61,516 nt of DNA, taken from positions 1 through 61,516 of the forward strand of contig SVEE01000013.1 of assembly GCA_015057525.1 (NCBI GenBank), written 5' to 3'. The translations under genes were made by a program, and so were the position numbers. Shown here in pieces: positions 8,253 through 59,879 of this stretch (within the stretch, counting starts at the first letter, position 1; the number at the start of each line of letters is the position of its first letter). The notes under the pieces were generated by a model. That model ran no database searches. It was not told where the DNA came from and saw only the letters and a list, made by a program, of their open reading frames with translations. Source of the DNA: Lachnospiraceae bacterium. Its GTDB lineage: Bacteria; Bacillota; Clostridia; Lachnospirales; Lachnospiraceae.

Positions 8253-8267
8253 CCTTGTTATATGAAA

Positions 8268-8532
8268 AAGGCTATGAAAAGAACAAGTAGCTTGTAATAT
8301 ACTGTCACAGAAAGTTGCCGGTTGATGAGAGGCGCGGTAAGGGTTACATGTGAATACATCTTGGAGCTTCACTCTGAATCAAGTAGGAGATGACGTAGTG
8401 GCACACGTTATAGTGCCTGAGTATTTGCTTATCAGATACTTGCTAAGGCAGCTGTTGTGAGATAGCTGTGAATTAAGGTGGTAACACGGAGATACATCTT
8501 CGTCCTTAGAAATAGGGACGAAGATTTTTTTG
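8268..8532 (+). promoter_or_regulatory. T-box leader, tyrosine-specific, with terminator
   Basis: A tRNA-sensing leader controlling tyrS. The T-box proper AAGGTGGTAACACGG is at 8475-8489. The specifier is TAC (Tyr) at 8355-8357, in the usual GTGAA-NNN context on the 3' side of stem I. The T-box TGGT would pair with ACCA, as expected for tRNA-Tyr with discriminator A. The intrinsic terminator is ATCTTCGTCC (8496-8505) pairing with GGGACGAAGAT (8515-8525) plus T residues. Uncharged tRNA-Tyr should favour the antiterminator and read-through. Confidence 0.93.
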
Positions 8533-8574: not shown

Positions 8575-9798
8575 ATGAAACTTTATGACGAGTTAGTAGC
8601 CAGAGGTCTTATCGCTCAGGTTACAAATGAAGAAGAAATTAGCAAATTGATTAACGAGGGAAAGGCAACATTTTATATTGGATTTGACCCAACAGCAGAC
8701 AGCTTACATGTTGGTCACTTTATGGCACTTTGTCTTATGAAGAGACTTCAGATGGGTGGAAATAAGCCTATTGCTCTTATTGGTGGTGGTACAGCTATGA
8801 TTGGCGACCCTTCAGGAAGAACTGATATGAGACAGATGATGACTAAAGAAACTATTCAGCACAACGTTGATTGCTTCAAGGTTCAGATGAGTAAGTTTAT
8901 AGACTTCTCTGATGACAAGGCCCTTCTTGTAAATAATGCAGACTGGCTTCTTGATCTTAATTATGTAGATGTACTTCGTGAGGTTGGTGCACACTTTTCT
9001 GTTAACAGAATGCTTACAGCTGAGTGCTACAAGCAGAGAATGGAGAAGGGTTTAAGCTTCCTTGAGTTTAACTACATGATTATGCAGAGCTACGACTTCT
9101 ACGCATTATTCCAGAAGTATGGATGTAACCTTCAGTTTGGCGGAGATGACCAGTGGTCAAATATGCTTGGTGGTACAGAGCTTATCAGACGTAAGCTTGG
9201 TAAGGATGCTCATGCAATGACTATTACACTTCTTCTTAACTCAGAAGGCAAGAAGATGGGTAAGACTCAGAAGGGTGCAGTATGGCTTGATCCTAATAAG
9301 ACAACTCCGTTCGAATTCTTCCAGTACTGGAGAAATGTGGCAGATGCAGATGTTATAAAATGTCTTAAGATGCTCACATTCCTTCCTCTTGAGCAGATTC
9401 AGGAGATGGAAAAATACGAGGGTAGCGAGCTTAATAAAGCTAAGGAAGTACTTGCATATGAGCTTACTACACTTGTTCATGGTGAAGAAGAGGGTAAGAA
9501 GGCTCTTGAGGCTGCTCGTGCTCTTTTCTCAAGTGGTAATGCTGAAAATATGCCAACAGCAGATATTACTGCTGAGGATTTAAAGGATGGCGTTATAGAT
9601 GCGATTTCTCTTCTTGTTAAATCTGGTCTTGTTACTTCAAGAAGTGAGGGAAGAAGAGCTATAGAGCAGGGTGGTGTTACTGTAAATGGTGAAAAGGTAA
9701 CAGATATTGCAACATCTTATGCACCAGAAGCATTTGCTGATGAGTTTGTTTTAAAACGCGGTAAGAAGAACTTCCGCAAAATAAATTTTGTAGGTTAA
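8575..9798 (+). CDS. tyrS: Tyrosyl-tRNA synthetase
   Basis: 407 residues, the normal bacterial length. It charges tRNA-Tyr with tyrosine. Visible class I signatures are the HIGH-type HVGHF (about residues 46-50) and the KMSKS-type KMGKT (about 226-230); the tyrosine pocket segment includes YDFYALF and FGGDDQWSN. The C-terminal ~65 residues are an S4 RNA-binding domain ([18 protein letters not shown]). GGAGGA sets the ATG. It is transcribed alone from the tyrosine T-box leader and ends in a strong terminator at 9807-9843. Confidence 0.97.
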
Positions 9799-56401: not shown

Positions 56402-58105
56402 AAAAATATTGTTATAGATTTATTTACCATATTAATTAGTATAAGCGGTGCAACTGCAACAGATGACAGTACAGATTTTGATAAAAAATTCAAAATTGAA
56501 AACAAGAGAATGCCATTTGACAACAGGTTAGAGCTTACAAAAGAATTTATTAACCAGGGAAATGAGAGTATAACTGGTACAGAATATACAGAACTTATTG
56601 AAGATGTTGAATTTGATATGTTTGACAGTGATGACAATAAGATTTCTGGCTTTGAATATAATCAGACCAGTAGTACATGGGTTATAGAACATCTTGAACC
56701 AGGTGAATATACAATCAAAGAGACTTCATACCCAGATGGTTATGTACCAGCAGGAGATGTTAAGGTAGTGGTTACTAAGACGGCTCCTGGAGAGACTGAA
56801 ATAACCGCAAGCTATCAGGGAAGCTTGTTAGAAGATATGACAGTTTCTCAAGATAGTGCTAATATGGCTGAAATAGCAATAACTCTTAAGAACCATCAGA
56901 CAGTAGATAACTATTTTGCTATTGATAAGAAATACATGGATGCTTTTGGCAACGAAATTGCAGATTCCACAGAGCTTGCAACATTGGTTGCTGATACAGA
57001 ATTTGTTTACAGAGCATCAAATGCTACAACACAAACACCTATTCCTTATGATGAAACTACTGGCATGTATGTTTTAGAGGATTTGCAGACTGGAACATAT
57101 ATTATAACAGAAACAGCACCTGCAGATTTTGTAGTGCTTGCTCAAATTGAGCTTGAAGTTGCAACAGATGGAAGTATTAGTGTTACTTACGACGGCGATG
57201 CAAATGATATATCAGTTGCAAATGATCCAACTAAGGCAAATGCAACAGTACTTACAGCTTACAACTACCATAAGAGTACTAATGTAAACATTGGTAAGTA
57301 TGACATTGTAAGTGGAGATGAACTTCCAGGCGCAGTTCTTACTATTACAGATGAGGATGGAAATGTAATAGATAAGTGGACTTCCTCAACAGGTGTTCAT
57401 AAGATTTCTCTTGATTTGTTTGAAGCAGGAGAAGAGTATGTATTAACAGAAATAACTGCTCCATTTGGATACGAGATAGCAGAAAGTATTACATTTAAGT
57501 TGGATATCTATGGTAATGTATATGTTCTTGGTGAAGATGGCACATTTAAGATAGTAGATGACAACACAGTATCTATGTTTGATGCACATCGCTTTGTAAA
57601 TATTACAAAGGTAGATATTACAAACGATAAAGAACTTCCAGGCGCAGAACTTATTGTTAAGGATGAAGATGGAAATGTGATTGATACGTGGATATCTACT
57701 ACAGATAAACATCCAATCTCTATGAGCTTATTTGAACCTAACAAGGAATATACTTTAACAGAGGTTACTGCTCCTAATGGATATGAAATAGCTGAGACTA
57801 TTACATTTAAATTAGATGAATCAGGAAATATTTATATTAAGGGTGAGGATGGTAACTTTACTAAGCTTACTGACGACAGTATTGTTATGAAGGATGCGCC
57901 GGTAGATAATTCAGTGCCAGAAGATGAGCCTGAACCGGAACCAACACCAGGGCCTGAGCCAACACCGGAACCACCTACAGATACATCATCGAGTGTAACA
58001 GATTCACCAGATACTGGTGATAATACAATGTTATTATTAATGATGGTATTAATGGTAATGTCCATTGGGGCAATGATGTTCTTTAGAAAGAAAAAATATA
58101 ATTAA
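56402..58105 (+). pseudogene. 5'-truncated Cna-B repeat surface protein with sortase-type tail
   Basis: The frame opens directly after the terminator of the preceding gene, without a start codon, ribosome site or signal peptide; the first ATG is at 56510. The product carries three or four Cna-B/SpaA-like beta domains with motifs such as EPGEYTIKETSYPDGY, LQTGTYIITETAP and EYVLTEITAPFGYEIAE. Before 56510 the frame still reads like the end of a further repeat. The end has a Pro/Glu linker, SPDTGDN (LPxTG-like), a hydrophobic helix and FRKKKYN, the sortase cell-wall signal. Such proteins are pilins or adhesins outside the cell. Loss of the first part suggests a decayed gene; an unusual short form starting at 56510 is the alternative. 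Confidence 0.7.
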
Positions 58106-58184: not shown

Positions 58185-58213
58185 TTGACATTTGAAAAAA
58201 ATGGTTCTATAAT
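58185..58213 (+). promoter_or_regulatory. Consensus promoter of the trpB T-box leader
   Basis: TTGACA (58185-58190), a 17-base spacer, TATAAT (58208-58213): a perfect housekeeping promoter. Confidence 0.93.
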
Positions 58214-58224
58214 CCAAGTCAATT

Positions 58225-58536
58225 TAATATATTATATAAACCGATGAAGCGGAGATAACGGCAATGATGCCTTTACAGAGAGCCTGTGGTGCTGAGAAGC
58301 AGGTGAGAAACAAGTTGTCAAATGGACCGCTGAGGGCGCAGTCAAAAGTGATTAGATGCACCTAGTATTCTGCGACGTGTGGGCATACGTTAGTTGTCGG
58401 GGATATGTTGGTATCCTGCTAAGCGTACAGCAGCATAGCTGTAAATCAAGGTGGCACCGCGGATTGTGTGTACTTTTGTTTAAGTATCGTATTCGTCCTT
58501 GACAGATTCTATTATTCTGTCAAGGACGTTTTTTTA
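58225..58536 (+). promoter_or_regulatory. T-box leader, tryptophan-specific, with terminator
   Basis: The T-box AAGGTGGCACCGCGG is at 58448-58462. The specifier is TGG (Trp) at 58323-58325, followed by ACC-GCTGAG. The T-box TGGC would pair with GCCA, matching tRNA-Trp with discriminator G. The terminator GTCCTTGACAGA (58495-58506) pairs with TCTGTCAAGGAC (58516-58527) and ends in T residues. Uncharged tRNA-Trp should allow read-through into the downstream leader peptide and trpB. Confidence 0.94.
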
Positions 58537-58579
58537 TGTTTCTTTGATAAAAAAATTGATTTATCAGGAGGTGTTAAGC

Positions 58580-58618
58580 ATGGTGCGAAAATTGTGGTGG
58601 CGCTTATGCGCGAGATAA
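58580..58618 (+). CDS. Trp-Trp leader peptide (12 codons)
   Basis: ATG 58580 opens a 12-residue frame, MVRKLWWRLCAR, ending in TAA 58616-58618. AGGAGGTG at 58567-58574 is a near-perfect Shine-Dalgarno, stronger than that of most genes here. Residues 6 and 7 are tandem Trp codons. A TGATAAA/TTTATCA hairpin (58545-58566) lies directly before the site and a GCGC-TTAT-GCGC hairpin (58600-58611) covers the codons after Trp. A Trp-codon leader peptide downstream of a tRNA-Trp T-box resembles rtpLP of the Bacillus subtilis anti-TRAP operon. The peptide is too short for a homology test, so the call rests on context. Confidence 0.7.
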   Translation: MVRKLWWRLCAR

Positions 58619-58658
58619 TATATGCAAAACAAAAAATTAGAATATGGAGGATAATACT

Positions 58659-59879
58659 ATGATGTATAATAATATTGATTTTGATACTTACTTTAAAAAC
58701 TATCCGGATGCGAAAGGATATTTTGGAAAATATGGTGGTTCTTATATCCCACCGGAATTACAGATAGCTATGAATGAAATTAGTGAGGCATATCAGACAA
58801 TTTGTAAGTCAAGACAGTTTATATGTGAACTGAGGCGTATTCGTAAGGAGTTCCAGGGCAGACCTACGCCGATTTCTCATCTGGCTAGACTATCAGATAA
58901 GATTGGGACAGGAGTTCAACTTTATGTAAAACGAGAGGATTTGAACCACACTGGTGCGCATAAACTCAATCATTGTATGGGAGAAGTGCTGCTTGCTAAA
59001 TACATGGGTAAGAAAAAGGTTATCGCAGAGACTGGAGCAGGTCAGCACGGTGTTGCGTTAGCAACAGCTGCAGCATATTTTGGATTGGAATGTGACATCT
59101 ATATGGGAGCTGTAGATATAAAAAAACAGGCACCTAATGTAGCGAGAATGAAAATACTTGGTGCCAGAGTAATAGAGGTTACGGATGGATTGCAGAGCCT
59201 CAAAGAAGCAGTAGATGCAGCGTTTATGGCATATTGTAAAGAATATAAGGATGCTATCTATTGTATTGGGTCTGTTGTAGGGCCGCATCCGTTCCCTATG
59301 ATGGTAAGAGATTTTCAGAGTGTAGTAGGAATTGAGGCAAGAGAACAGTTCTTAGAAATGACGGGAGAACTACCAGATGCGATTGTTGCCTGTGTGGGTG
59401 GAGGTTCTAATGCAATGGGATTATTTTCGGGATTTTTAAATGATCCTGTTGATATTTATGGGGTTGAGCCACTTGGAAGAGGAACTGCACTCGGTGACCA
59501 TGCAGCAAGCCTTACTTATGGAGAAGAAGGTGTTATGCATGGATTTAACAGTATAATGTTAAAAGATGAAAAAGGGGAGCCAGCACCTGTATATTCCGTG
59601 GCAAGTGGTTTGGATTATCCATCATCAGGGCCGGAACATGCATTTTTACATGATCTTGGTAGAGTAAAATACGATGTGGTAAGTGATGATGAAACTATAG
59701 ATGCTTTCTTTGAACTTTCACGAATGGAAGGCATTATTCCTGCAATTGAAAGTTCTCATGCAGTTGCTTACGGTGTGAAGTTAGCTAAGCAATTGGGTAA
59801 AGGTTCTATTCTTATAAATCTCTCAGGTAGAGGAGATAAGGATATGGATTATATTATTGAAAAATATGGGATAAGATAA
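58659..59879 (+). CDS. trpB: Tryptophan synthase beta chain, stand-alone
   Basis: 406 residues. It joins indole and serine to tryptophan with [15 protein letters not shown] holds the PLP lysine (Lys102), [11 protein letters not shown] the catalytic Glu, and [10 protein letters not shown] the phosphate loop. [12 protein letters not shown] replaces the usual INN..GQALLAK, an unusual set of changes next to the PLP lysine. GGAGG at 58646-58650 favours ATG 58659 over an in-frame ATG at 58644 that has no site of its own. No trpA or other trp gene is adjacent, so the enzyme may salvage free indole. It lies under the T-box and leader peptide. Confidence 0.93.

Follow-up and report, generated by a model that had tools for sequence, protein, structure and literature searches.

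The window analysed here (the term is used throughout for the whole stretch of DNA) is 61,516 nt long and comes from a Lachnospiraceae bacterium (assembly GCA_015057525.1, contig SVEE01000013.1, forward strand). At positions 58185–59879 it carries a stand-alone trpB gene preceded by a promoter, a T-box riboswitch with its terminator, and a short leader peptide frame, as follows.

58185..58213, + strand: sigma-70-type promoter, TTGACA-17-TATAAT (12 of 12 consensus positions; consensus match only)
58235..58503, + strand: tRNA-Trp T-box riboswitch (Rfam RF00230, 89.9 bits, E 2.8e-20)
58323–58325, + strand: T-box specifier TGG, with ACC directly 3' (read from the sequence)
58452–58455, + strand: T-box acceptor-pairing bases TGGC (read from the sequence)
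58494..58535, + strand: T-box terminator, a hairpin with a 13-bp stem (58494–58528) followed by 7 T
58566..58573, + strand: Shine-Dalgarno (SD) site of the leader peptide, AGGAGGTG (from the sequence)
58580..58618, + strand: leader peptide ORF, MVRKLWWRLCAR, 12 codons (the leaders of relatives occupy the same place)
58619..58645, + strand: leader–trpB spacer, A-rich and G-poor (from the sequence; terminator not found)
58646..58650, + strand: trpB SD site, GGAGG (from the sequence)
58659..59879, + strand: stand-alone trpB (tryptophan synthase beta), 406 aa (TIGR00263, 522 bits against a cut-off of 392)

The initial annotation had described a promoter, a tRNA-Trp T-box (TGG, TGGC), a terminator, a 12-codon SD-led frame and trpB 40 nt further on, and all of these parts were found to be present. 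The match to RF00230 covers the full length of the model (1–219 of 219) yet scores slightly below the gathering score of 93, and is absent from a scan at the gathering threshold; given a full-length covariance-model match together with a strong terminator (the region 58440–58535 has a fold z-score of -4.3), the element is assigned to the family at a score just under gathering. The TGG specifier and the TGGC acceptor-pairing bases both point to a single tRNA, namely tRNA-Trp with discriminator G, which we take to be the discriminator base of this tRNA. The leader frame begins at ATG 58580, has its Trp codons (TGG TGG) at 58595–58600 and ends with TAA at 58616–58618, leaving 27 nt from its stop to the trpB SD site and 40 nt to the trpB ATG, which is placed at 58659 because of the GGAGG at 58646. 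The leader mini-ORF is not a product of chance: of 20000 dinucleotide shuffles of 58536–58658, 132 produced an SD-led mini-ORF containing a Trp codon, and 5 produced one with WW. As to the surroundings, an LPXTG/NPXTG-anchored surface protein, in part resembling pilus proteins, is encoded directly upstream (56510–58105), and a second T-box (8265–8510, 110.6 bits) precedes a gene resembling those for tyrosyl-tRNA synthetase (8575–9798, named by eye).

The genome to which the window belongs measures 2.35 Mb and is 97.3% complete. The description of trpB as an orphan holds, in that no trpA or other trp gene was seen by eye among the ORFs of the window, and a separate trpB-trpA pair (trpA by eye) lies on another contig; the trpB of this pair scores higher than that of the window (644 as against 522 bits), and the pair has its own Trp T-box and terminator, without a leader. 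The genome also encodes a TrpB2-type gene, at which a T-box motif and a leader were looked for and neither was found. The IGPS (trpC) family gave no match in this 97.3% complete genome, which suggests that indole comes from outside; with its trpB-trpA pair, stand-alone trpB and TrpB2, and no IGPS match, the organism is likely to be an indole salvager, and the stand-alone trpB probably serves this salvage. There are seven T-box matches in the genome, and among the six that were displayed a leader was seen by eye only at the locus considered here. At another of the genome's T-boxes (locus L189, contig C18), 376 nt of long and unexplained sequence separate the T-box core from a threonyl-tRNA-synthetase-like gene (by eye).

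Occurrence of the leader and the genes behind it

Relatives of the locus were collected by protein search, taking the best 80 trpB loci of a larger list (83–94% identity), of which one (L049) lacks upstream sequence, leaving 79. An SD-led Trp mini-ORF stands in the place of the leader in 56 of these 79 best-matching relatives (54 found by scan, and two, L002 and L004, read by hand), under an SD criterion loose enough to admit AAGG or GGTG; 55 of the 56 lie behind a T-box. If a single mismatch is allowed, the T-box core motif is present in 54 of the 56, the others being L020, where the core is a variant one and the T-box was recognised by eye, and L016, which has a leader without a T-box core. 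Neither T-box nor leader was found in 11 of the 79, including one relative (L056) placed in this class since, on its short contig, the motif letters are present and an SD-led frame is absent. Relatives that keep the T-box and trpB and have no Trp frame, which the initial annotation had named as counting against its proposal, do exist, namely ten of the 79 with the T-box core and two more (L019 and L035) with T-box remnants only, so that the leader is common but dispensable. T-boxes were identified with Rfam at the window, at eight relatives and throughout five whole genomes, and elsewhere by motif and by eye.

A strict leader pattern found 25 places in 23 of 391 Clostridia genomes, as against 4 hits for a reversed-pattern control; 17 of these places are distinct leaders with a T-box motif, seven are chance matches and one is a duplicate. 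Fifteen of the 17 have a trpB-type gene in view and the other two are cut by contig ends, while four repeat loci already obtained by protein search (L121 = L065, L130 = L032, L132 = L003, L135 = L002). A looser motif, run over 392 genomes of the taxonomic order to which the window belongs, matched at 30 places in 26 of them; its reversed-pattern control did as well, and three of the 30 places are real leaders. Among further motif hits in 38 leader-bearing genomes, four were inspected, one (L149) being real and three due to chance, and the rest were judged from the matched letters. Within the family of the window, 150 genomes hold a close trpB in 11 cases besides the window's own: one (L173) has both T-box and leader, two (L174 and L175) have the T-box without the leader, and L172 together with seven loci at 72–74% identity have neither. 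In a TrpB tree of 99 rows there are 66 with T-box and leader, 14 with a T-box or remnant only, one with a leader only and 18 with neither, it being remembered that nine of the 67 leader rows were picked by the leader pattern and that one of these is identical to L065. On this tree the gains and losses of T-box and leader were not significantly correlated (five supported independent pairs, median p 0.25).

The arrangement is not confined to trpB. A T-box with a leader also precedes TrpB2-type genes at three loci, two of which (L087 and L149) were found through the leader pattern, the genome of L149 also holding a trpB relative (L001) with a leader of its own; when 30 TrpB2 loci were drawn regardless of leader, 18 had a T-box motif and 17 of those 18 had no leader, the sole exception being the third locus, L254. 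At a further locus (L085) T-box and leader stand before an unclassified, membrane-like protein of 395 aa, followed by an M20-peptidase-like gene (both by eye). The 395-aa protein has no Pfam or NCBIfam match, and no further copies of its gene were found in 196 genomes at E 1e-60; together with the peptidase-like gene it is a candidate uptake system for tryptophan or dipeptides. The T-boxes at all four of these loci were confirmed with Rfam. The T-boxes that accompany leaders also differ among themselves, the specifier region being of the type GTCAAATGGACCGCTGAGG in the window, GTAATATGG in the near relatives L002, L003, L137 and L138, and GAATGGACTTATGAGGG in others; the leader and the type of T-box are therefore not locked together. 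As regards T-boxes for other amino acids, a reading by eye, in which a few rows were misread, covered six of the seven T-box loci in the window's genome together with 20 of 30 loci taken from four other genomes that have 43 T-box matches in all, and behind no such T-box was a leader noticed. Three leaders were present among those 20 loci, all of them at trpB or TrpB2.

The conserved leader motif

A set of 55 leaders (54 relatives and the window) was used to define what is conserved. The initial annotation had drawn attention to tandem Trp codons, which turn out to be the exception: the conserved feature is (L)(L)TKRW(R), with a TKRW context that includes the codon CGA, and most leaders (50 of 55) have a single Trp codon. 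The core [KR]RW is found in 49 of 55 leaders and the longer form [LIVMF][TASCV][KR]RW in 44, the window's copy not being among them, so that conservation at the amino-acid level upstream of a defined codon, as expected of an arrest leader, is a property of the set and not of that copy. TGG is preceded by CGA in 51 of 55 leaders and by some Arg codon in 52, counts made with a finder that was restricted to a set of letter patterns (CGATGG after several codons, and variants) and could miss other Arg codons; a scan needing only an SD site and a Trp codon gave a non-CGA Arg codon before Trp at L001 alone (CGC). In the adjoining trpB genes CGA makes up just 31 of 878 Arg codons, AGA being the commonest (410 of 878). 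After TGG the codon is CGN in 45 of 55 leaders and AGA or AGG in none; in two it is a stop, and in some it encodes another residue.

The manner of this conservation is that of a translated sequence. Up to TGG the information per column is codon-periodic, with 1.06–1.74 bits at second codon positions, and third-position information is low except in the Lys and CGA codons (0.24–0.28 bits at codons -5, -4 and -3, 1.51 bits for CGA), Leu at codon -5 using all six of its synonyms and Thr at codon -3 all four. The TGG columns carry 2.0 bits and the next two bases 1.32 and 1.69, after which values fall to 0.04–0.61. At 50 of the 51 readable leader loci the nearest SD-led start shares its frame with the TGG, the exception being L004, where another upstream start brings the TGG into frame; a 52nd hit in this test, at L049, is not a leader, that locus having been scanned throughout since its upstream sequence is absent. 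Codon-periodic, in-frame conservation that ends after UGG-CG points to a translated leader that matters up to its Trp codon and not beyond. The conserved codons could stem from shared descent, though neighbouring synonymous sites vary. In one relative (L047) the motif is duplicated in tandem, MLLTKRWRSLLTKRWRGLNESEN, upstream of trpB.

These observations bear on two alternatives. The first is that the leader is a by-product, either a translation enhancer or a neutral mini-ORF, that has spread with the T-box by descent and recombination, which would fit the ten of 79 best-matching relatives that keep the T-box core without it; in view of the in-frame codon periodicity, the retention of a rare CGA while synonymous sites around it vary, and the occurrence of the leader beside T-boxes of several types and before different genes, we would give this account hardly any chance. 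The second concerns the nature of the signal. In TnaC and the macrolide leader peptides the ribosome stops with a ligand in its exit tunnel, and the LTKR(W) chain, with the R-W-R context, might likewise stop a ribosome when free tryptophan or indole occupies the tunnel. Conservation of amino acids before W with free third positions would be natural for such an arrest peptide, as would the single Trp codon in 50 of 55 leaders and the Arg after Trp in 45 of 55, which gives an R-W-R of the (R/K)x(R/K) kind, a motif looked at in erythromycin-treated samples in a degradome study (PMC10234816). Against this, W may be followed by a stop (two of 55) or by a residue other than Arg, CGA would be superfluous if the effect were one of the peptide alone, and the linkage to a T-box favours tRNA-Trp as the signal, so that sensing of a free small molecule is rather unlikely.

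How CGA is decoded was considered by way of the tRNA-Arg genes. A pattern search for tRNA-Arg in the window's genome gave no match, and these genes were therefore read in another leader-bearing genome (G789), in which ARAGORN covered all 49 tRNA matches (47 loci opened, two of the genes lying in neighbouring loci). The tRNA-Arg anticodons there are UCU, ACG, CCG and CCU, and since UCG is not among them CGA is presumably decoded through A34 or by inosine wobble. In one study, four CGA codons left lacZ output unlowered in B. subtilis (PMC10454642). A role for CGA as a codon that tunes decoding may nevertheless be envisaged.

The window's own leader keeps the SD site, the place, the K, two Trp codons and the R, and has TTG in place of CGA before the first Trp; the core pattern does not match it. 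Its nearest rows in the TrpB tree (L137, L001, L002, L138 and L003) all have both T-box and leader, and two of these (L001 and L138) also read KRWWR; judged by its sequence, the copy in the window belongs to the (L)TKRW(R) leaders as a divergent member.

Geometry, RNA structure and possible outputs

In the 55 leaders the distance from TGG to the ATG of the gene ranges from 50 to 170 nt (median 69), and that from the leader stop to the same ATG from 15 to 104 nt (median 50). This matters for the most obvious precedent, the anti-TRAP leader of B. subtilis, in which a ribosome terminating at the leader stop blocks the next ribosome site. The proposal that the same happens here, with a ribosome stalled upstream at the Trp codon relieving the block on the adjoining trpB site, has in its favour that the order of parts equals that of the rtpA leader, and that at L002, L004 and L149 the leader frame runs as far as the gene start, an overlap that would allow coupling or occlusion at those loci. 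On the other side, most stops lie beyond the cover of a terminating ribosome, the initial annotation having already remarked on the long distance in the window, and the peptide lacks conservation in its C-terminal part. With a variable stop position and a trpB site that is not sequestered (see below), blocking by a terminating ribosome does not fit, and we regard it as unlikely. The two-tier, anti-TRAP-like logic proposed in the initial annotation is supported in part, namely as regards the T-box, the conserved Trp-codon leader and the common layout, which offers two sites at which Trp-tRNA might be sensed.

The absence of sequestration, likewise anticipated from the window alone, holds on average over 55 loci, where the mean unpaired probability of the trpB ribosome site is 0.464 when the leader is free, 0.487 with a ribosome stalled, 0.503 with one at the stop, and 0.469 for shuffled leader-plus-spacer sequences; sequestration of the site is ruled out as an average property. 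Classical attenuation, in which a stall would switch RNA structures between leader and trpB (by way of site sequestration or a second terminator), could draw on four of the 55 loci (L034, L050, L051 and L068), where placing a ribosome at TGG raises accessibility of the site by more than 0.2. These averages speak against it, as do an unconserved spacer and a window in which no terminator was found from leader to trpB (58619–58658, fold z +0.53) and hence no alternative terminator of the trpL type; such a switch is highly improbable. Two further candidates were rejected. As for pairing of CGAUGGCG with either the T-box or the start of the gene, its best duplexes are no stronger than those of shuffled motifs (-10.84 as against -11.36 kcal/mol). 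A frameshift product is rejected since, of the 55 leaders, no more than 13 (+1 frame after CGA) and 12 (-1 frame) would read on into the gene start, and the mixed phase of TGG to ATG (21, 20 and 14 of the 55) also counts against it.

Rho control provides another conceivable output, since a G-poor leader and spacer might be open to Rho once ribosomes have run off, and a stalled ribosome would shorten the stretch of naked RNA. Pooled over the 55 leaders, the spacers have G 0.08 and C 0.15, to be compared with G 0.161 and C 0.131 at positions -70 to -14 of nine loci without T-box and leader; T-box loci without a leader are intermediate (G 0.126, C 0.152, from only 151 nt pooled). It must be remembered that G-poverty may merely reflect an absence of structure, and that the spacers are short and would be left naked by the very ribosome that stalls, which makes control by Rho very unlikely.

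The geometry itself, that is the distance from TGG to ATG, the variable stop and the unsequestered trpB site, suggests that the signal most likely comes from the ribosome at the Trp codon, and that it spares the trpB site and is independent of any nearby RNA switch. Our preferred reading, to which we would assign a probability of about one half, is that the locus is a two-stage, cis-acting sensor of tryptophanyl-tRNA placed before a stand-alone trpB. In the T-box family, binding of uncharged tRNA lets RNA polymerase pass the terminator, and by its sequence the first stage here would be of this kind, uncharged tRNA-Trp on the T-box giving read-through. In the second stage a ribosome would initiate at the leader behind the terminator and meet UGG within a few codons. 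Were Trp-tRNA scarce, it would halt there, 50 nt or more before trpB begins, leaving the trpB ribosome site free and possibly shielding the newly released message from 5'-3' decay by RNase J, so that trpB would be expressed; were Trp-tRNA ample, ribosomes would run off, and messages that had leaked past the T-box would be short-lived. RNase J is reported to follow ribosomes, and in three Bacilli species decay ends 14 nt upstream of the A-site stall (PMC10234816). This precedent, together with the closeness of the leader start to the T-box terminator hairpin (19–35 nt past it in 33 of 53 measurable loci), is the reason for favouring protection from decay, and by analogy protection of the mRNA by a stalled ribosome appears to be the best-fitting output of the second stage.

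Two structural details of the interval before the leader may be recorded. At five loci (L001, L012, L013, L061 of Massiliimalia timonensis, and L065) the T-box terminator and the SD site of the leader are separated by a second terminator-like hairpin, for example CTCCTTTG...CAAAGGAG followed by a T-run, and at L002 and L138 a similar inverted repeat, seen by eye, contains the leader SD site itself.

It is also possible, if somewhat doubtful, that LTKRW(R) represents a new, portable kind of ribosome-arrest leader, joined by Clostridia to tRNA-Trp T-boxes, in which a rare CGA in the P site, read only by inosine wobble, would sharpen the sensing of Trp-tRNA at UGG, so that one Trp codon would suffice as a second sensor with no RNA switch and with the gene at least 50 nt away. 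If this were true, a wobble codon in the P site would tune a sensor codon in the A site, and a single synonymous codon change should alter regulation; gut bacteria that seemingly cannot make indole would thereby gain fine control over its salvage.

Comparison with known systems

Searches of the literature for T-box and leader peptide together with trpB or tryptophan gave no account of the leader, within a coverage that left out most subscription journals, and a search with the letters of the peptide returned one paper on mass-spectrometry imaging, unrelated by its title. According to a survey of T-boxes from 2008, Dehalococcoides has a trpB-like T-box; the term leader peptide is absent from the accessible part of that survey (PMC2494555). 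The leader is real and conserved, and is undescribed in the literature searched (which is weak evidence of novelty); it varies a known logic of T-box plus leader peptide.

Leaderless Trp T-boxes, such as that of the genome's own trpB-trpA pair (L191) or one before an aminotransferase-like gene (L199, by eye), share with this locus the TGG specifier, the T-box and the terminator, but have no mini-ORF between terminator and gene. The enteric trpL element is a transcription attenuator with Trp codons in a short leader peptide, and this last property is common to both, whereas the stretch that separates leader from gene in the window showed no terminator. With TnaC and ErmCL/ErmDL there is the likeness that nascent residues are conserved just before a defined codon and that conservation is then lost; here, in contrast, the downstream gene lies outside any switching hairpin and the stall is a putative one. 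We know of no sequence likeness between the (L)TKRW(R) leader and TnaC or ErmCL/ErmDL.

The closest parallel is the anti-TRAP gene rtpA of B. subtilis, whose T-box plus leader peptide was reportedly described by Chen and Yanofsky in 2003 and 2004. To our knowledge, a T-box and a leader peptide that sense the same tRNA in tandem are known only from this system, where the leader has three Trp codons. In both cases a tRNA-Trp T-box is followed by a short leader with Trp codons and then by the regulated gene, a layout suited to sensing at the levels of both transcription and translation, and such a leader between T-box and gene is present in the window and in 55 of the 79 best-matching relatives. 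Ribosome stalling that depends on tRNA reportedly regulates translation of the rtpA leader (PMC11255114). The differences lie in the gene, which here is trpB, TrpB2 or a membrane protein and not anti-TRAP; in the codons, there usually being one Trp codon within a fixed TKRW(R) that includes CGA; and in the stop, which is variable (15–104 nt from the gene, 40 nt in the window) and does not lie at the next ribosome site. Among Clostridia the tandem of T-box and leader is found repeatedly at genes for tryptophan synthesis or salvage.
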